A stretch of 64,000 nucleotides of DNA. Source: Edaphocola flava (GTDB lineage: Bacteria > Bacteroidota > Bacteroidia > Chitinophagales > Chitinophagaceae). Positions 7,038 to 32,968 of this stretch are shown here, piece after piece. How positions within the stretch are numbered: the first letter of the stretch is position 1; the number at the start of each line of letters is the position of its first letter. Below the pieces are notes generated by a model that was not told the origin of the DNA, did no database searches, and saw only the letters and a list, made by a program, of their open reading frames with translations. A program made the position numbers and the translations under genes. The DNA lies in NCBI RefSeq assembly GCF_004118155.1, contig NZ_SAIQ01000001.1, positions 1,116,001 to 1,180,000 on the forward strand. The letters are read 5' to 3'.

Positions 7038-8294
7038 ATGGCTAGTATTAACTTAATTGAATCGTTTCAGGACTTTAAAGAAGCAGAAGGGATAGATCGT
7101 TCTACCCTCATGAAAGTACTGGAAGACGTATTCAAAACGCTTTTGAGAAAAAAATACGGTTCGGATGATAACTTTGATGTAATCGTTAACGACCAGACCG
7201 GTGACCTGGAAATCTTCAGAAGAAGAACCGCAGTAGAAGATGGTTTTGAAGAAGATGATAATGCTGAGATCCAGATATCTGAAGCAAGACTGATCGACCC
7301 TGATTATTCAGTAGGTGAAGAAGTATATGAAGAGATTGATGTACTGGACTTCGGTCGCAGAGCTATTCTCGCAGCCAAGCAAACACTTGCTGCCCGTATC
7401 AGTGATTTAAAGAAAAACAGTATCCTGCAAAAATATGCAGAGCGCGTAGGTGAGATCATCAATGGTGAAGTATACCAGATCTGGAGAAAAGAACTGATGC
7501 TGCTGGATGAAGAAGGTAACGAATTATTATTGCCTAAGTCTGAGCAGATCGCTGGCGACTTTTTCCGTAAAGGAGAACCACTTCGTGCAGTAGTGAAGAA
7601 AGTAGAAATGCGCAGCAATGCACCGGTTATTATCCTGAGCAGAACACACTCTTCTTTCCTGGAAAAACTTCTGGAAATCGAAGTTCCTGAAATTCAGGAT
7701 GGTCTGATCACGATCAAGAAAATAGTAAGAGAGCCAGGTGAGCGTGCAAAAGTAGCAGTAGAAAGCTATGATGACCGTATCGATCCGGTAGGTGCTTGTG
7801 TAGGTATGAAAGGTAGCCGTATTCACGGTATTGTAAGAGAACTGCGCAACGAAAATATCGACATCATTAACTATACAGCCAATACTTCCCTGCTGATCCA
7901 GCGTGCGCTGACTCCGGCAAAAGTAAACCGTATAGATCTGAATACAGAGAAAAACCATGCTGATGTGTACATGGATACCGATCAGGTATCTCTGGCTATT
8001 GGTAAGAAAGGGGTAAACATTAAACTGGCACAGCAACTGTCTGGCTTTAGCATTGATGTATACCGTGATGTAAAAGAGTCTGCAGAATTCGATATCGATC
8101 TGGACGAATTTACAGATGAGATCGAAGCATGGGTTATTGCAGAATTCAAAAAAGTGGGCTACGATACTGCATTAAGTATCCTGGAGCACTCTGTTGAAGA
8201 GCTGACTCGCCGTACCGATCTGGAAGAAGAAACGGTTAAAGACGTACGCCGCATCCTTGAGGCTGAATTTGAAGATGATGGTACCGCCGAGTAA
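7038..8294 (+). CDS. nusA: Transcription termination/antitermination factor NusA
   Basis: 418 residues in the usual order: N-terminal RNA polymerase-binding domain (1-130), S1 domain (about 135-200, GEIINGEVYQIWRKELML), KH1 and KH2 (about 205-345, with GACVGMKGSRI and AIGKKGVNIKLA), then an acidic C-terminal tail. It lacks the long repeat region of the E. coli protein, as is common outside Proteobacteria. NusA pauses RNA polymerase and helps termination, antitermination and coupling to translation. Middle gene of the operon. Confidence 0.96.
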   Translation: MASINLIESFQDFKEAEGIDRSTLMKVLEDVFKTLLRKKYGSDDNFDVIVNDQTGDLEIFRRRTAVEDGFEEDDNAEIQISEARLIDPDYSVGEEVYEEIDVLDFGRRAILAAKQTLAARISDLKKNSILQKYAERVGEIINGEVYQIWRKELMLLDEEGNELLLPKSEQIAGDFFRKGEPLRAVVKKVEMRSNAPVIILSRTHSSFLEKLLEIEVPEIQDGLITIKKIVREPGERAKVAVESYDDRIDPVGACVGMKGSRIHGIVRELRNENIDIINYTANTSLLIQRALTPAKVNRIDLNTEKNHADVYMDTDQVSLAIGKKGVNIKLAQQLSGFSIDVYRDVKESAEFDIDLDEFTDEIEAWVIAEFKKVGYDTALSILEHSVEELTRRTDLEEETVKDVRRILEAEFEDDGTAE

Positions 8295-26532: not shown

Positions 26533-27948
26533 ATGAACAGAATAAATGGCAATGACCTTATTGAATTAGGGTACCCGGAAAATGCTATCCTTGGTGCTGC
26601 CCTGAAAATAAATAAGAAAAGAGTAGGCTTTACCCGTGATCAGATGATGCAAAAATATAAAGAGGTGCTGGAGCATCCGGAACAATTTGTTGCAGACCCG
26701 CTGTTTGCTAAGCTTGCCGCATTGATCATAAAAGGAGCGGAAGCGGAAACAAGCATCATCCCTTTAAGAACAGCTCCACTGCCATATGAAACTTATGGCG
26801 CAGAAAATATCGAAGAGGGTGCACTGAAACAGATGGATACCGCGATGAAGCTCCCGGTAGCGGTGGCTGGAGCTTTAATGCCTGATGCCCACCAGGGATA
26901 TGGCTTACCTATCGGTGGTGTGCTGGCTACTAAAAATGCAGTAATTCCTTACGGAGTGGGCGTAGATATTGGTTGTCGTATGGCTTTGTCTGTATATGAC
27001 CTGCCGGAGTCTTACTATATTCAGCATCATGATGTATTGCAGGGCATATTGACAAAAGAATCTATGTTTGGTGCAGGGAGAGGATTTACTGGTTCCTATA
27101 GATCTGAGCATGCTGTATTGGACAATACTTTGTTCAACGAACATCAATTTATCCAATCGCTGAAAGATAAGGCCTGGGCTCAGTTAGGGACTTCCGGTGG
27201 CGGTAATCATTTTGTTGAATTCGGGATTATCCGTTTCGAAGAAGATGACGCAGCATTGAATATTCCGAAAGGCAATTACCTGGCGCTGTTGACCCATTCC
27301 GGTTCCCGTGGCCTTGGCGCAACGATTGCTGGACATTATACCCGATTAGCGAAAGAACTGTGTGCACTGCCTTACGAAGCACAGCATCTGGCTTACCTGG
27401 ATCTGTTTTCAGAAGCGGGACAGGAGTATTGGCTGGCCATGAATCTGGCTGGCGATTATGCATCGGCCTGTCACGAGATCATTCACCAGAAAATAGCCCG
27501 TGCTCTGGGTGCAACAGTACTGGCCCGCGTAGAGAACCATCATAACTTCGCCTGGAAAGAGCAGTGGAATGGAGAAGAGGTAATTGTACATCGTAAAGGA
27601 GCCACACCTGCTGGTAAAGGTGTAATGGGTATAATTCCGGGATCAATGACTGCACCGGGATTCCTGGTAAGAGGTAAAGGTGTCGCAGCTGCGATTAATT
27701 CGGCCTCACATGGTGCAGGACGATTAATGAGTCGTACACAAGCTATCAAAACGCTGGATAGTTCAGCAATAGCTGAGGTATTGCAGCAACATAATGTTAC
27801 CCTGATTGGTGGCGGAAAAGATGAAGCACCGATGGCTTATAAAAACATTCATGCGGTGATGCATGCACAGTCAGATCTTGTAGACATTGTGGCCACATTC
27901 GAACCTAAAATGGTGCGTATGGCAGATGATGGGAGTAAAGAAGATTAA
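26533..27948 (+). CDS. rtcB: RtcB-family RNA ligase (copy 1)
   Basis: 471 residues from ATG 26533. RtcB seals 2',3'-cyclic phosphate and 5'-OH RNA ends using GTP and Mn2+. All catalytic signatures are present: MPDAHQGYGLPIGGV, VDIGCRM (metal Asp and Cys), GGGNHFVEF (metal His), LLTHSGSRGLG, VENHHNFAW, HRKGATPAGKGVMGIIPGSM and SHGAGRLMSR with the guanylylated histidine. An upstream in-frame TTG (26431) would add 34 unrelated residues across the promoter region and is rejected. A second copy lies 2 kb downstream. Terminator hairpin overlaps the stop codon. Confidence 0.92.
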   Translation: MNRINGNDLIELGYPENAILGAALKINKKRVGFTRDQMMQKYKEVLEHPEQFVADPLFAKLAALIIKGAEAETSIIPLRTAPLPYETYGAENIEEGALKQMDTAMKLPVAVAGALMPDAHQGYGLPIGGVLATKNAVIPYGVGVDIGCRMALSVYDLPESYYIQHHDVLQGILTKESMFGAGRGFTGSYRSEHAVLDNTLFNEHQFIQSLKDKAWAQLGTSGGGNHFVEFGIIRFEEDDAALNIPKGNYLALLTHSGSRGLGATIAGHYTRLAKELCALPYEAQHLAYLDLFSEAGQEYWLAMNLAGDYASACHEIIHQKIARALGATVLARVENHHNFAWKEQWNGEEVIVHRKGATPAGKGVMGIIPGSMTAPGFLVRGKGVAAAINSASHGAGRLMSRTQAIKTLDSSAIAEVLQQHNVTLIGGGKDEAPMAYKNIHAVMHAQSDLVDIVATFEPKMVRMADDGSKED

Positions 27949-28209: not shown

Positions 28210-29586
28210 TTATTGTTGTTGCAAACTGCTCATCACCTTATCTCCGAATTGCTCCAGTGACGGATCACGGGCGCCCATCAACAGTAAAATGCAATCATCT
28301 GTAAAGTGAGGTTTCATAGCTGTGATCAGTTCGTTTCGGTCTGCCACAAAAAAGGCATTAATACCTTTTGCTTTTAAGTCTTCGATCAGGTCGGCAGCAG
28401 AAATATCTTTGGTGGTTGTACCGCCGGCATAATAAATTTCGCTCATCCACATTTCATCCTGCGGACGTAATGCCTTACTGATTTCTTCTACCAGTTCTGT
28501 ACGGATAAACTTTGTCGGGGCAAATCCATGTGGCTGAAACCATGCGATCAATTTATCGGCAACAGGTTTACAGGCTTCAATACTGGCGGCGATTTTAGCC
28601 GGATTATGTGCATAATCATCGATAACAGTTATACCATTTACAGTGCCTAATAGTTGATGTCTGCGATAAATGCCCGGATAGCTGGATAATGCAGCAGCAC
28701 ACTGTTCTTCATTGATGCCGAGTTGTCTGGCTACTGCAATACAGGCCAGAGCATTTTCCATATTATGTGCACCTATGGTCGGCAGATGCATGGCAACGCC
28801 GTTGACGTTGAAATAAATATTGAACCCTTCCTGTCTGAAATGATGACCTTCATTAGGCGTGCCTTTCCCAAAATCCAATGCAGTATCGGTACTGTAACTG
28901 GACGCTAAAGCATGAGAGCGGTTCACAATAAAATGCTCCTGTGTATTGCCTTTGAAAATGGAGAAGATTTCATGCAGTTCCGAAAGTTCTTTATGATCCT
29001 TGTCAATGCTTAATAGCACGCCGATAGCAGGTTTATATTGCACTAAAGAGCCATCACTCTCATCCGCTTCAATAATCAGCCAGTCGCTGTTTCCAACATG
29101 ACAGTTTCCGATCTTACCTTGTTTGATCAGAGACACAATGCCCGCACCCGTGATCAGTGAGGCATCAATTCCATTTTGCGTCAGTAAGTGAAACAGCATA
29201 GCCGCTGTCGTACTTTTCCCACTGGTGCCGGCAATGGCAATCGTCTTTTTGCTCGCACATATCTGTGCCAGTAATTGCGCACGGGTAATGATCGGAATAT
29301 GCAGAGACTTTGCCCTGGCCACTTCTACATTAGTGTCTTCGATTGCAGTACTGACTACCAGTACCTCATCCTGTTCGGTAATTTGTGCTTTCAGCTGATC
29401 AAAGCAATGTATACCTTCTGCTTCAAGCTGTGCCTTTGTGTGATCATTAGCATCGGTATTGAACAAGCGGTCGCTGCCCGATACCTGCTTTCCCTTCCCG
29501 CTCAGATACTGGGCAATAGCACTCATGCCTGCACCAGCTACACCTGCGAAAAAGAAACGTTGTTTATCTAAAATATGATCAGTCAT
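28210..29586 (-). CDS. MurC-like Mur ligase (UDP-N-acetylmuramate--alanine ligase family)
   Basis: 458 residues with the three-domain Mur ligase plan. N-terminal Rossmann motif FFAGVAGAGMSAIAQYL and GSDR as in MurC; ATP loop GTSGKST (about 119-125) where canonical MurC and Mpl have GTHGKTTT; central EADESDGS; C-terminal RRHQLLG and DDYAHNP. It is therefore a MurC relative but with an altered P-loop. The housekeeping murC normally sits in the division/cell-wall cluster, which is not here, so this may be a second ligase, for example for peptide recycling (Mpl-like) or a different amino acid. The reaction is inferred from family only. Confidence 0.75.
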   Translation of the reverse strand: MTDHILDKQRFFFAGVAGAGMSAIAQYLSGKGKQVSGSDRLFNTDANDHTKAQLEAEGIHCFDQLKAQITEQDEVLVVSTAIEDTNVEVARAKSLHIPIITRAQLLAQICASKKTIAIAGTSGKSTTAAMLFHLLTQNGIDASLITGAGIVSLIKQGKIGNCHVGNSDWLIIEADESDGSLVQYKPAIGVLLSIDKDHKELSELHEIFSIFKGNTQEHFIVNRSHALASSYSTDTALDFGKGTPNEGHHFRQEGFNIYFNVNGVAMHLPTIGAHNMENALACIAVARQLGINEEQCAAALSSYPGIYRRHQLLGTVNGITVIDDYAHNPAKIAASIEACKPVADKLIAWFQPHGFAPTKFIRTELVEEISKALRPQDEMWMSEIYYAGGTTTKDISAADLIEDLKAKGINAFFVADRNELITAMKPHFTDDCILLLMGARDPSLEQFGDKVMSSLQQQ

Positions 29587-29711: not shown

Positions 29712-29719
29712 CAACTTTG
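29712..29719 (+). promoter_or_regulatory. Possible -7 box for rtcB2-prfH
   Basis: CAACTTTG is one base off TAnnTTTG; a T-rich run (29687-29697) lies at about the right distance for a weak -33 element. Confidence 0.35.
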
Positions 29720-29764
29720 CAGCAGATATAATCTCATTGTGTAACCTCTTAAATACACAATACC

Positions 29765-29809
29765 ATGACTGAACAATTCTACATATCGTCCCTCTTTATT
29801 GCAGCCTAG
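29765..29809 (+). CDS. Possible 14-residue leader peptide upstream of rtcB2
   Basis: ATG 29765 opens a frame of 14 codons (MTEQFYISSLFIAA) ending with TAG at 29807-29809. The stop codon lies in the loop of a small hairpin: GCAGCC (29801-29806) against GGCAGC (29814-29819), five pairs and one A-A mismatch. The tail TTTCTTTTTG follows at once. This arrangement resembles a translation-sensing attenuator. It could equally be chance; there is no comparative evidence here. Confidence 0.35.
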   Translation: MTEQFYISSLFIAA

Positions 29810-29969
29810 ATAAGGCAGCTTTCTTTTTGTTTTCCGGTGTCGAAAATCTGTGTATTGCAAGCGCAATGCCAGTAACAGCTGTACTTATCTGCTTCATTAT
29901 TCTTTAGGGACTATCTCCTTTAAGGACGAATCGAAATTTTCATTTTTTTATATATACACAACAAATAAC

Positions 29970-30004
29970 GGTGGCTGCCGGAGGCATATTTATGCCCGTC
30001 CACC
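29970..30004 (+). other. Two-part hairpin directly upstream of the rtcB2 start
   Basis: Outer stem GGTGG (29970-29974) / CCACC (30000-30004) and inner stem GGCATA (29983-29988) / TATGCC (29991-29996). It ends nine bases before ATG 30014 and could affect ribosome access. Confidence 0.5.
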
Positions 30005-30013
30005 ATCCGAGTC

Positions 30014-31414
30014 ATGGGAAATTTAAAATTAAAAGAACTCAGTAAGATCGGCTATACCGACAACCAGGCAAGAGCACTGGTGGTACAGACGATGTCGAAA
30101 TATTACAAACACGAAAGTACAACAGTGCTGTTGCAGCTGCTGAAAGATATACGGCTTCAACCGGAGCAATACCTGCAGGATGCCATCCTGGGAAAGATTG
30201 CAAGAACCTTTATTACAGAAGAAAAAACCTGTTCGTTCCGCAGTTATGAATTATTGCAGGAAACAGGTGCCATACACACATTTGGCGCAAAATATATAGA
30301 AGCCAGTGCCCGGCAGCAAATGGAAGTGGCTATGTCATTACCGATAAGCCTGCAAGGTGCGATGATGCCCGATGCACATGCAGGTTATGGACTGCCGATC
30401 GGAGGCGTGCTGGCTACACAAAACGCAGTCGTGCCTTATGCAGTCGGAGTCGATATCGGTTGCCGTATGGCATTAAGCATTGTAGATGCAGAGGCCAGTT
30501 ATCTAAAACGATTTGCCTACCAGTTGAAGCAGGCATTAAAAACATATACCCACTTTGGAACCGATGGTCACCTGGAGTTTGCGCAGGAGCATGAGATACT
30601 GGATGATCCCCGCTTTCAGGCGACAGCACTGTTACGGAAGCTGCATGGAAAAGCAGTATTACAGTTAGGTTCCTCCGGGAGCGGTAACCACTTTGTAGAA
30701 TTTGGAGTGATTACGCTACAGCCTGATAATGCAATGGGATTGCCTGCCGGCGATTATACTGCACTGCTGTCACACTCAGGCTCACGTGGTCTGGGAGCCA
30801 ATATCGCGATGGAGTATACGCGTATTGCTATGGATCAGTGCAAACTGCCCGCATCTGCCAGGTCGCTGGCCTGGCTTGATCTTGATGCAGAAGCCGGACA
30901 AGAGTACTGGATGGGTATGGAGCTGGCCGGTGATTATGCTAAGGCCTGTCATGAACGCATTCATCATAACCTCTTGCAGGCACTGGGATTGAAGCCACTG
31001 GCACAGGTATCACACCATCATAATTTTGCCTGGAACGAAGTACTGGCAGATGGCACACCTGCCGTAGTGCATAGAAAAGGAGCGACTCCCGCACATAAGG
31101 GTACATTGGGCATTATACCCGGCAGTATGACTACCGCTGCATATCTCGTTGAGGGCCTGGGTAATGAACGGGCATTGCAGTCTGCATCACATGGGGCAGG
31201 CAGGGCAATGAGCCGCAAGCGTGCCAAAGAAAATATGACCGTCAGTGAATTAAAGAAAATGCTGGCTAGGGCCGATGTAAGCCTTATAGGCGGAAGTGTG
31301 GAAGAAAACCCGAGGGCTTACAAAGACATTGAAGAGATCATTGCTGCACAATCAGAACTGGTAACAGTGCAGGGACGGTTTATGCCTAAAATTGTACGCA
31401 TGTGCAAAGACTAA
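30014..31414 (+). CDS. RtcB-family RNA ligase, PrfH-linked copy (RtcB2)
   Basis: 466 residues. The active site is intact: Asp147 and Cys150 (VGVDIGC), His226 (GSGNHF), His254 (SHSGSR), the HHHN segment (334-337), HRKGATPAHKGTLGIIPGSM and His393 (SHGAGR), the expected GMP acceptor. It shares the MPDAHxGYGLPIGGV block with copy 1 but differs in the lid segment (FGTDGHLEF against GAGRGFTGS). Followed after 12 bases by prfH. This pairing defines the RtcB2-PrfH type, reported to repair 16S rRNA cut in the decoding centre by colicin E3-like nucleases. Confidence 0.93.
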   Translation: MGNLKLKELSKIGYTDNQARALVVQTMSKYYKHESTTVLLQLLKDIRLQPEQYLQDAILGKIARTFITEEKTCSFRSYELLQETGAIHTFGAKYIEASARQQMEVAMSLPISLQGAMMPDAHAGYGLPIGGVLATQNAVVPYAVGVDIGCRMALSIVDAEASYLKRFAYQLKQALKTYTHFGTDGHLEFAQEHEILDDPRFQATALLRKLHGKAVLQLGSSGSGNHFVEFGVITLQPDNAMGLPAGDYTALLSHSGSRGLGANIAMEYTRIAMDQCKLPASARSLAWLDLDAEAGQEYWMGMELAGDYAKACHERIHHNLLQALGLKPLAQVSHHHNFAWNEVLADGTPAVVHRKGATPAHKGTLGIIPGSMTTAAYLVEGLGNERALQSASHGAGRAMSRKRAKENMTVSELKKMLARADVSLIGGSVEENPRAYKDIEEIIAAQSELVTVQGRFMPKIVRMCKD

Positions 31415-31426
31415 AAATTAATTAGA

Positions 31427-32041
31427 ATGGACAAAACAATAATACAGATCACCTCCGGTCGCGGACCGGAGGAATGTACCAGGGTCGTAGCCAAAGTACA
31501 GGAATATATACTGAAGCAGGTAAGAGCAAATGCAATCCGGGTCGAAGTGGCGGATACCGTGCCCGGAGATATAAAAGGAACGCTGCGTTCCGCAACTATA
31601 ATGGCTTATGGTAATGTGGATATATTGCAAAAAGAGTGGGAAGGAACGGTGCAATGGATTGCGCAAAGCCCTTATCGCAAAATGCACAAACGTAAAAACT
31701 GGTTTGTAGGTGTGCGTTTCTTTCCGGTTGATGCATTGCAGGCCTGGAAGGAAAGTGATGTAGTATTTGAAACCTGCAGAGCATCCGGTCCTGGCGGGCA
31801 AAATGTAAACAAAGTAGAGACTGCAGTAAGAGGAAAGCACATCCCATCCGGAATACAAGTCCTGGCTGCAGATACACGCTCTCAATTGCAGAATAAAAAA
31901 CTATGCGCAGCACGGTTGAAAGAGAAAGTAGAGCTCTGGTATACCCGGCAGCTGACAGAAGCACAGCAGGATCGCTGGCAGGAGCATAATGTGCTGGAGC
32001 GCGGCAATCCCGTTAAAACTGTTAAAGCACCACTGGTATAA
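31427..32041 (+). CDS. prfH: Release factor homologue PrfH
   Basis: 204 residues. Contains the peptidyl-tRNA hydrolysis motif GPGGQNVNKVETAVR (GGQ at 123-125), but is far shorter than RF1/RF2 (about 360) and lacks the codon-reading domain with its PxT/SPF tripeptide. The N-terminal about 100 residues are specific to PrfH. It is thought to release nascent chains from damaged ribosomes so that RtcB2 can religate the rRNA. Position directly after rtcB2 supports this. DUF72 follows after 21 bases. Confidence 0.92.
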   Translation: MDKTIIQITSGRGPEECTRVVAKVQEYILKQVRANAIRVEVADTVPGDIKGTLRSATIMAYGNVDILQKEWEGTVQWIAQSPYRKMHKRKNWFVGVRFFPVDALQAWKESDVVFETCRASGPGGQNVNKVETAVRGKHIPSGIQVLAADTRSQLQNKKLCAARLKEKVELWYTRQLTEAQQDRWQEHNVLERGNPVKTVKAPLV

Positions 32042-32062: not shown

Positions 32063-32968
32063 ATGATGGAATTCGGACGTGTAGCGGCATCAGCCATAAG
32101 CAAGATTGATTTTACTTTACCTCCCGATCCGGAGCAGAATGCCTCCGTACTGGAACACAGTATTGCAGTATCACGCAAGCTTTATGTGGGTTGTCCTAAG
32201 TGGACTTCCAAAACATGGCTGGGTAAAATATACCCGGAGCAGACTAAGGAAAAAGACTTTCTGAAGGAATATGTAAAGCATTTCAACAGCATTGAACTGA
32301 ATGCAACACATTACAAAGTGTATGATCATACTGCTATCCGTAAATGGGCAGCTATGGCTAAGGATCAGGAAGACTTTCTGTTTCTGCCTAAGATGTATAA
32401 AGAGATAACGCATTCCGGATCTATGTATGAAAAGGAGTTGCTTACCTATGCTTTTCTGGATCCGCTGAAAGAGTTCGGTGCGCATCTGGTACCGGTCTTT
32501 ATACAGCTCAGTGATCAGTTTTCGCCGGAGCGGCAAAAGGAACTTGCTGATTACCTGTCTGCATTGCCGGAAGGGTTCAATTATTTCCTGGAGCTCAGGC
32601 ATAGAGACTGGTTTACAGCCGGGCAGCAATCATTTTTTGATTTCCTCTCTACTTTGAATATCGGTATAGTAATCATTGATACGCCGGGTCGGAGAGACTG
32701 TGCCCATATGCGGCTGACCACAAATAAAACAATGGTCCGCTTTGTCAGTAATAGCCTCCACCCTACTGATTACGACAGGATCGATAGCTGGGTGCAAAGG
32801 CTGAAAGCCTGGTATGACAAAGGATTAGAAGCATGCTACTTCTTCACACATATGCCGGATGAGGAATTCTGTCCTGAGTTAAATACATATTTCGCAAAAC
32901 AAATGGCCAGTGCTACCGGCATCAATATTCGCCTGCCGAAGTTTATAGAAAAGAATACTTTGTTTTAA
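32063..32968 (+). CDS. DUF72-domain protein (YecE-like)
   Basis: 301 residues with a TIM-barrel DUF72 domain (about 35-280: YVGCPKWTSKTWLGKIYP, FNSIELNATHYKVYD, FLPKMYKEITHS, FLELRHRDWF, FFTHMP). Family function is unknown. It is the third gene of the rtcB2-prfH run (21-base gap). Whether it takes part in RNA repair is open. Its stop codon is the left end of a perfect palindromic terminator. Confidence 0.85.
   Translation: MMEFGRVAASAISKIDFTLPPDPEQNASVLEHSIAVSRKLYVGCPKWTSKTWLGKIYPEQTKEKDFLKEYVKHFNSIELNATHYKVYDHTAIRKWAAMAKDQEDFLFLPKMYKEITHSGSMYEKELLTYAFLDPLKEFGAHLVPVFIQLSDQFSPERQKELADYLSALPEGFNYFLELRHRDWFTAGQQSFFDFLSTLNIGIVIIDTPGRRDCAHMRLTTNKTMVRFVSNSLHPTDYDRIDSWVQRLKAWYDKGLEACYFFTHMPDEEFCPELNTYFAKQMASATGINIRLPKFIEKNTLF

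Follow-up and report, generated by a model that had tools for sequence, protein, structure and literature searches.

A conserved leader element in front of the rtcB-prfH operon of Edaphocola flava, a candidate sensor of failing translation

The stretch of Edaphocola flava DNA analyzed here (contig NZ_SAIQ01000001.1, positions 1,116,001 to 1,180,000 of the forward strand; 64,000 nucleotides, hereafter the window) carries a gene pair for an RtcB-type RNA ligase and peptide chain release factor H (PrfH), preceded by a conserved leader element with a short open reading frame (ORF), the main subject of this report (Table 1). The two genes are separated by 12 bases. The ligase matches PF01139 (E 2.6e-77 in a domain scan) and retains all five metal- and GMP-binding residues (Asp147, Cys150, His226, His254, His393), as an earlier sequence-only reading of the locus had stated; as a member of the RtcB family it is predicted to ligate 2',3'-cyclic phosphate ends in a GTP- and Mn-dependent manner. 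PrfH scores 230.4 bits against TIGR03072 (cut-off 166.65), lacks the N-terminal domain of RF1/RF2, as is characteristic of PrfH/RFH, and is nearer to the PrfH proteins of PDB entries 9mor and 9mq4 than to that of 7sa4 (183.8 vs. 143.6 bits). The sequence-only reading rightly took it for a short GGQ release factor but was mistaken in denying it a codon-reading domain, since its residues 6-169 can be aligned to positions 113-279 of an RF2 chain (4v5e_AY) and SPYR is found at residue 81.

The same reading had named the ligase RtcB2. It is indeed a second, PrfH-linked RtcB, but not an RtcB2 in the sense of TIGR03073, an identity ruled out by a score of 141.6 bits, below the curated cut-off of 271.8, and by its separation from the proteobacterial rows of the RtcB tree. 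A search of the host genome of 3.54 Mb finds only two RtcB copies, the linked one and RtcB1 (26533-27948), which is 48% identical to it and lies about 2 kb upstream, across a MurC-like gene. A search for PADLOC anti-phage systems gave no match for the operon of the window. The gene pair is a real and intact rtcB-prfH unit, a new member of an already known system. Nor is its Bacteroidota setting new, as had been supposed: the RFH of Bacteroides thetaiotaomicron is already listed by Baranov 2006 (PMC1586002), and nearer PrfH entries exist in PDB (9mor, 9mq4). The best reading of the products, drawn from the families to which they belong and from work published on E. coli (PMC9223846), is that of a probable ribosome rescue-and-repair unit, and the earlier proposal to that effect is supported.

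Table 1. Features of the rtcB-prfH locus, in positions of the window
Feature	Position	Strand	Remark
Bacteroidota-type -7 promoter-like element, CAACTTTG (TANNTTTG in most relatives)	29712..29719	+	about 50 nt before leader ORF
Hairpin H1, ATTGTGTA ... TACACAAT	29736..29761	+	near expected transcript 5' end, directly before leader ORF
Leader ORF, 14 codons, MTEQFYISSLFIAA and stop	29765..29809	+	
CATATC element within leader ORF, near-constant	29782..29787	+	
Hairpin H2, GCAGCCTAGATAAGGCAGC, leader stop codon inside	29801..29819	+	predicted
U-rich tract after H2, TTTCTTTTTGTTTT	29820..29833	+	
rtcB, PrfH-linked long-form RtcB RNA ligase, 466 aa	30014..31414	+	PF01139, catalytic residues, place in tree
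prfH, peptide chain release factor H, 204 aa, GGQ at 123-125	31427..32041	+	TIGR03072, PDB relatives 9mor/9mq4/7sa4
DUF72 gene	32063-32968		PF01904; start 21 bases behind prfH

PrfH proteins above the TIGR03072 cut-off were found in 26 of 244 Chitinophagaceae genomes and in 27 of 395 from a sample of the phylum, the window genome being among the 395. For the comparison of neighbourhoods, 52 PrfH loci were used with up to about 8 kb of flank on each side. The linkage of rtcB and prfH extends to the relatives: at 48 of the 52 loci prfH is preceded, on its own strand and within 2.9 kb, by an RtcB gene, so the pairing is not a product of chance. Within the family this applies to 22 of 26 loci, with gaps of 2 to 258 bases, while the remaining four consist of prfH behind a gene that we call X (two loci) or of prfH alone (two loci). 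Gene X encodes a basic, conserved protein of about 250 aa (RTARQKKRL ... PYQKGW; e.g. L071 5772-6512 and L091 5800-6579) and precedes rtcB or prfH in many loci; a Pfam scan of three copies left two without a match at E 0.1 and gave only a chance-level match for the third.

The sequence-only reading was right to consider the long leader noteworthy. The gap between the MurC-like gene and rtcB measures 427 bp, and in it a promoter-like element, a hairpin (H1), a leader ORF containing the hexamer CATATC, a second hairpin (H2) and a U-rich tract follow each other in this order. Such a leader stands before the operon at all 26 PrfH loci of the family, 19 times in the form seen in the window (search model R1, E <= 4.8e-6) and seven times in a form whose ORF reads MLEQ or MLEQYTHII before the stop. 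It travels with the operon, standing before X in the X-rtcB-prfH loci and before prfH where prfH is alone. With a loose pattern, 35 of 36 leaders show a -7-like element at a distance of 45-73 nt upstream of the ORF start codon, and a decayed copy in a congener (G031, described below) lacks it; a sigma-70 scan gave a single match, which equals the chance expectation. H1 folds with a z of -2.4 in the window and a mean z of -2.3 over 29 leaders, compared with -0.2 in control segments, and its stem varies wholly among genera with pairing kept (ATTGTGTA/TACACAAT, ATTCCTT/AAGGAAT, GGTTCCTG/CAGGAATT and others). The leader ORF has 14-15 codons in 26 of 29 first-form leaders (L077, L078 and L307 are shorter) and ends in TGA (14), TAA (10) or TAG (5). 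CATATC is present in 32 of 36 leaders, replaced by CATATA (two), CATATT (one) or CATACC (one) in the others, and is retained even where the ORF ends before it, as in the MLEQ type. Codon 7 is ATA in 21 of 21 leaders, although ATA makes up about one fifth of the Ile codons in the long ORFs of the window. Codon 6 was considered as a marker of Q-tRNA codons, but TCC, ACC and TTC are also found at this position, and the idea was abandoned. Past the leader stop, the best 12-nt stretch at a distance of 8-45 nt holds at least 7 T in 24 of 24 leaders tested, with a mean T count of 8.7 against 5.5 (sd 1.35) in composition controls (this count and the codon-position entropies given below exclude L079, and the former also excludes the G031 copy and the short ORFs).

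The element is also specific in genome searches. Over 394 family genomes, R1 gave 27 matches at E <= 8.6e-6, the next one following only at 2.5e-4. Seventeen of them are rows of the model itself and ten lie outside it (G125, G101 (= L075), the G031 scar, G711, G735, G633, G682, G697, G650 and G089); all ten adjoin genes for X, RtcB or PrfH, or a prfH remnant. The last seven are newly recognized genomes with X, rtcB and/or prfH downstream, two of them cut by contig ends; in G650 only X lies behind the leader, without rtcB or prfH, and G089 has X-rtcB without prfH in the 7 kb fetched. Five weaker matches that were inspected (G141, G011, G060, G717, G122) are ordinary gene starts. Over 390 genomes of the phylum, R1 at E <= 0.001 found only the window genome and G357, both rows of the model, and one match of 22.6 bits. 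The MLEQ pattern, for which the MLEQ loci of G060 and G096 are too divergent, was found in 5 of 244 genomes, all of them PrfH carriers, and its reversed control in none. Some leaders that the first regular expression or motif had missed were recovered later (L075, L100, L101, L104, L194). Leaders of related appearance, seen by eye and missed by R1, precede a Mucilaginibacter locus (L194) and a locus on plasmid pAT2 of Aureibacter tunicatorum (L315); in the latter, as read by eye, the rtcB-prfH pair is accompanied by a leader ORF reading MLVYHSNIAL before its stop, the motif AATATCGCCC and then a long inverted repeat.

A known RNA leader family was rejected as the identity of the element, since none of 4227 Rfam families matches the window at gathering level; the seven matches at E <= 10 all remain far below their gathering scores. 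Elsewhere, a Flavo-1 RNA of Rfam lies near the repair-operon leader of G553, on the opposite strand (L091 5350-5427, minus strand). A strong hairpin directly before the rtcB start of the window (29970-30004, GGTGG ... CCACC around GGCATATTTATGCC; local fold -16.7 kcal/mol) is also present, with one change, in E. aurantiacus.

A second leader, unrelated in sequence to that of the window, stands before all 25 PrfH loci of Flavobacteriaceae type, a label used here for families f4 and f5, which are placed beside named Flavobacteriaceae in the RtcB tree; 22 of these leaders were found with a regular expression, one with a wider one and two by eye, with a GTG start. The ORF of 25-28 codons (e.g. MFVLKSTSQSFTSNKFGAALLRGLFQS or MFKFNQHSTVGLPLMVVRLRGWVHS, each followed by a stop) starts beside a CGAAG arm, whose partner CTTCG-TGG falls within the codons L-R-G in most cases. 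Behind the ORF there is an intrinsic terminator, whose 5' arm CCCGAAG can instead pair with the CTTCG-TGG partner, so that the layout is that of a 1:2/2:3/3:4 attenuator with a clear intrinsic terminator. The 2:3 helix co-varies (GTGGC/GCC, GTGACT/AGTC, GTGATT/AATC), and the antiterminator duplexes have a mean energy of -15.6 kcal/mol for cognate arms, -10.6 for non-cognate arms exchanged between subtypes and -7.2 for shuffled ones (33 of 36 leaders parsed; L088, L104 and L105 were not, and arm 2 of L355 was mis-set). Attenuation in the Flavobacteriaceae-type genomes is, on these comparisons, a well-supported prediction; there is no run of a single codon in the ORFs, which makes the sensing of an amino acid look unlikely.

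Model R2, built for this second leader, gave 14 matches at E <= 1.8e-5 over 249 genomes beyond its two model rows. Behind eight of them comes RtcB, in seven cases along with PrfH; another three precede only an accessory gene, one precedes an AAC(3)-I-like gene, and in the remaining two a leader ORF is absent. The accessory genes encode tetratricopeptide repeat (TPR) proteins in G936 and G793, with a distant RtcB (27%) further on, and a PcfJ-like protein in G923. PcfJ-like proteins (PF14284) come first after the leader in L347, L348 and L349, with RtcB next in two of the three. In G797 (L325 1501-2281) the leader and its terminator precede an AAC(3)-I-like GNAT (87 bits, cut-off 200), which hints that such leaders may sense trouble at the decoding centre in general. 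Weaker matches mostly cover the terminator end of the model (L333, L335 and L337 among those inspected), and R2 also fails to find some leaders that can be recognized by eye (L104, L105, L174, L176, L196). Two of these belong to the congeners G192 and G240 (L174, L176), in which a Flavobacteriaceae-type RtcB-TPR pair follows such a leader, recognized by eye, without a PrfH over the cut-off; this would be an apparent transfer of an alternative repair unit.

Leader ORFs are also common before the PrfH-linked rtcB genes of Proteobacteria and Desulfobulbaceae. With a rule of 12-20 codons, a Shine-Dalgarno sequence and a position within 320 bp upstream of rtcB, ATG-initiated ORFs of 13-20 codons were found at 8 of 10 loci, against 0.45 of 10 expected from shuffles; the two loci without one are those of Skermanella and a member of the Desulfobulbaceae, the rtcB start of the latter being unsure. 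The 15-codon ORF of E. coli (MTNPLSMTLCRPFQD and stop) has the same sequence in all four alleles read, including two whose rtcB is broken, and a 266-bp query containing it had at least a partial match in 5343 of 5426 E. coli genomes, covering >80% of its length in 2280. Induction of E. coli ykfJ by 4-azaleucine, which disturbs translation (PMC3516279), is consistent with a leader that senses translation trouble. A precedent exists in Pseudomonas aeruginosa, where a leader of 13 aa, PA5471.1, precedes PA5471 (ArmZ, RtcB-like) and PA5470 (PrfH), and where ribosomes stall on PA5471.1 because of ribosome-targeting drugs or suhB/cca mutations; according to a model published in 2026, this stalling keeps the 3:4 terminator from forming, so that armZ is transcribed (PMC12057347, PMC3516279, PMC13041342). 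The accessible portions of the open-licence PMC literature held no report of leaders of this kind outside P. aeruginosa.

In the RtcB tree (70 rows, midpoint root only, with a program warning of long branches), the longest branches separate the RtcBs of Bacteroidota from four PrfH-linked RtcBs of Proteobacteria and Desulfobulbaceae. The RtcBs of the X/rtcB/prfH loci of the family, together with one f3 genome and Mucilaginibacter, form one group of 29 rows (support 99/99), joined by the RtcB of the Aureibacter plasmid (98/95) and with seven unlinked family RtcBs adjacent; the two further unlinked RtcBs, of G192 and G240, are placed among the Flavobacteriaceae-type rows. R1 had no match at nine unlinked RtcB loci searched (L002, L135-L142).

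As to the neighbouring genes, the Flavobacteriaceae-type operons carry additional genes for TPR, NTase-like, zinc-ribbon-like or PcfJ-like proteins. In the window, the sequence-only reading had joined the DUF72 gene to the unit, which the neighbourhood comparison contradicts. DUF72 homologues occur in the fetched flanks of only 2 of the 52 PrfH loci, those of the window and of Edaphocola aurantiacus H2 (G125), and the latter is a near-duplicate of the window, with a PrfH 99% identical to that of the window and proteins 96-99% identical. In the congener G031 the order RtcB1, MurC-like gene, DUF72 is kept and the repair operon is gone. The gap of about 350 bp between the latter two genes (L173, about 7458-7810) contains a decayed leader without the -7 element, a remnant of prfH consisting of its last codons (HNILERGDPVKTIRQSLL and stop) and then, before DUF72, a terminator-like hairpin read by eye. 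The two remnants rule out an empty site and show that the operon was deleted there, DUF72 having been a neighbour beforehand; a partnership of DUF72 with the operon is ruled out by the count of loci and by its retention at this scar. The order RtcB1, MurC-like gene, repair operon is the same in E. aurantiacus, and G031 also retains RtcB1 along with DUF72. The MurC-like ligase (28210-29586) is encoded divergently to rtcB and scores 304 bits against the TIGR01082 cut-off of 335; a second Mur ligase gene, about 30% identical, lies elsewhere in four congeners.

We propose, with a probability of roughly 60%, that the locus is a ribosome rescue-and-repair operon under the control of a leader peptide that senses failing translation. 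PrfH would act on ribosomes that have stalled because the decoding centre of their 16S rRNA is cut, entering the A site and hydrolysing the peptidyl-tRNA, after which the linked RtcB would re-ligate the 2',3'-cyclic-phosphate/5'-OH break; these functions are those of a known family and are presumed for the proteins of the window from that family and from the E. coli work. The transcript would begin with a hairpin and the 14-codon ORF, whose last codons and stop would lie within the second hairpin, followed by the U-rich tract. Normal translation of the ORF and exit from it would allow H2 to form and, with the U-rich tract as a terminator, transcription would end; ribosomes that stall or linger on the ORF, their decoding centre cut or blocked, would prevent the hairpin and the operon would be transcribed. 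In particular, a ribosome stuck near the leader stop codon, or unable to leave it, would keep the operon on, a signal that would match the very defect relieved by PrfH and RtcB. Sequence comparison establishes that the element exists, that it is conserved and specific, and that the Flavobacteriaceae-type leaders have alternative helices. As these leaders are laid out like PA5471.1, we infer that the same principle may apply to the window leader, i.e. that it ends transcription and that ribosome failure is its signal.

Several observations speak against this proposal. Taken alone, H2 is weak (29 leaders, mean z -0.98), the terminator rule gives nothing when applied to the window leader, the leader as a whole folds no better than shuffles (z 0.02), and RNAalifold on a MAFFT alignment (A3) gives no consensus pairs; because of this result, and because MAFFT misaligns the MLEQ leaders, H1, H2 and the antiterminator were assessed sequence by sequence. 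Third codon positions of the leader ORF are no freer than the others (entropies 1.0, 0.69 and 0.91; 21 leaders), so selection on the peptide itself is not demonstrated. A pure peptide or stalling model leaves unexplained why CATATC persists outside the ORF, and two intact operons of the model set have a shortened ORF (L077, L078). Nor does the proposal account for the constant ATA at codon 7 or for the weak H2 of the window. Some of the ten R1 matches outside the model are close kin of its rows. In the literature, a 2025 review holds that attenuation by PA5471.1 still needs confirmation (PMC12057347), and overexpressed rtcB2 alone protected E. coli from colicin E3 (Maviza 2022, PMC9223846), which means that PrfH is not strictly required in that species.

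The proposed role of the products also competes with the view, which we consider somewhat unlikely, that they mainly recover antibiotic-stalled ribosomes or repair other RNAs and not E3-type cuts of 16S rRNA. It would agree with the report that PA5470 counters azithromycin through release of stalled ribosomes (cited in PMC12057347), with the Flavobacteriaceae-type leader before the acetyltransferase gene of G797, its AAC(3)-I score of 87 bits being below the cut-off of 200, and with a window RtcB that is not of TIGR03073 type; however, a PrfH with a linked RtcB suggests release coupled to ligation, and the protection that the E. coli pair gives against colicin E3 does not extend to colicins D or E5 (PMC9223846). 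As for the leader, the frame-independent conservation of CATATC, the strong hairpin that directly precedes the start of rtcB and the weak H2 of the window would suit control at the level of translation or RNA binding, in which a protein or small RNA binds the hairpin or CATATC, or the rtcB start is sequestered, and the ORF only holds ribosomes on the RNA. This seems improbable in view of the U-rich tract past the leader stop in every leader tested and the clear intrinsic terminator of the Flavobacteriaceae counterpart, and the hairpin before rtcB was seen by eye in two Edaphocola genomes only, other genera not having been checked systematically. That the conserved block serves as an operator or promoter in the DNA, with the inverted repeat as a transcription-factor site and an incidental ORF, is very hard to accept, for although H1 is palindromic and adjoins the promoter-like element, the repeat sequence differs wholly among genera while its pairing persists, the start, length and end of the ORF are conserved, the stop being any of three codons, and the block lies downstream of that element.

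Returning to leader-peptide control by failing translation, the leader classes are strongly supported by comparison as conserved elements of the rtcB-prfH operon and moderately supported as putative sensors of ribosome failure. They are new variants of a control type already known, and it is the leader, not the gene pair, that is new. How RtcB and PrfH synthesis is controlled after ribosomes are cut is little known beyond PA5471.1 and the rtcBA operon of E. coli, which is controlled by RtcR (PMC12606134), and a 2025 review describes leader-peptide control of an anti-repressor as seemingly confined to MexXY (PMC12057347). That leader ORFs stand in front of almost every rtcB-prfH operon examined, in members of two phyla, points to a common rule. 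A broader reading, for and against which we see even odds, is that ribosome-failure-sensing leader ORFs are a general switch of RtcB-PrfH in Bacteroidota and Pseudomonadota, with several origins and unrelated sequences. The drug-inducible PA5471.1, which drives MexXY efflux, would on this view have been derived from an ancient sensor of ribosome damage, and the Chitinophagaceae would have a class of their own, apparently undescribed (hairpin, CATATC ORF, hairpin, U-rich tract), by which ribosomes that stall or are slow to release at the leader stop are sensed, release there being the step that PrfH restores. If true, antibiotic-inducible efflux would be linked to an RNA-repair sensor. Models R1 and R2 can be used to search for more repair operons.

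Among known systems, the RtcB2-PrfH operon of E. coli (Maviza 2022, PMC9223846) resembles that of the window in its TIGR03072 PrfH with an RtcB gene directly upstream and in the leader ORF in front, with 15 codons and a Shine-Dalgarno sequence; it differs in its ligase, the window RtcB being a long form that falls below the TIGR03073 cut-off, with the longest branches of the tree between the two. PA5471.1-PA5471-PA5470 (PMC12057347, PMC3516279, PMC13041342) shares a short leader ORF before an RtcB-like/PrfH operon; transcription attenuation, proposed there with four segments, and a response to ribosome stress would be further likenesses. The window leader has a good H1, a weak H2, no rule-based terminator and no clear four-segment layout; the extra role of ArmZ as MexZ anti-repressor is a further difference. 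RFH-RtcB neighbourhoods with TPR, Pol-beta NTase and zinc-finger accessory genes and a sporadic spread were described by Burroughs and Aravind 2019 (PMC6514570), and similar neighbours are found among the loci studied here, whereas the operon of the window consists of rtcB and prfH only and a leader element is not mentioned in the accessible text of that paper. Attenuators of resistance genes (erm, vmlR) likewise combine a leader ORF that senses the state of the ribosome with a product that protects it, but the product of the window operon would repair and recycle the ribosome itself.

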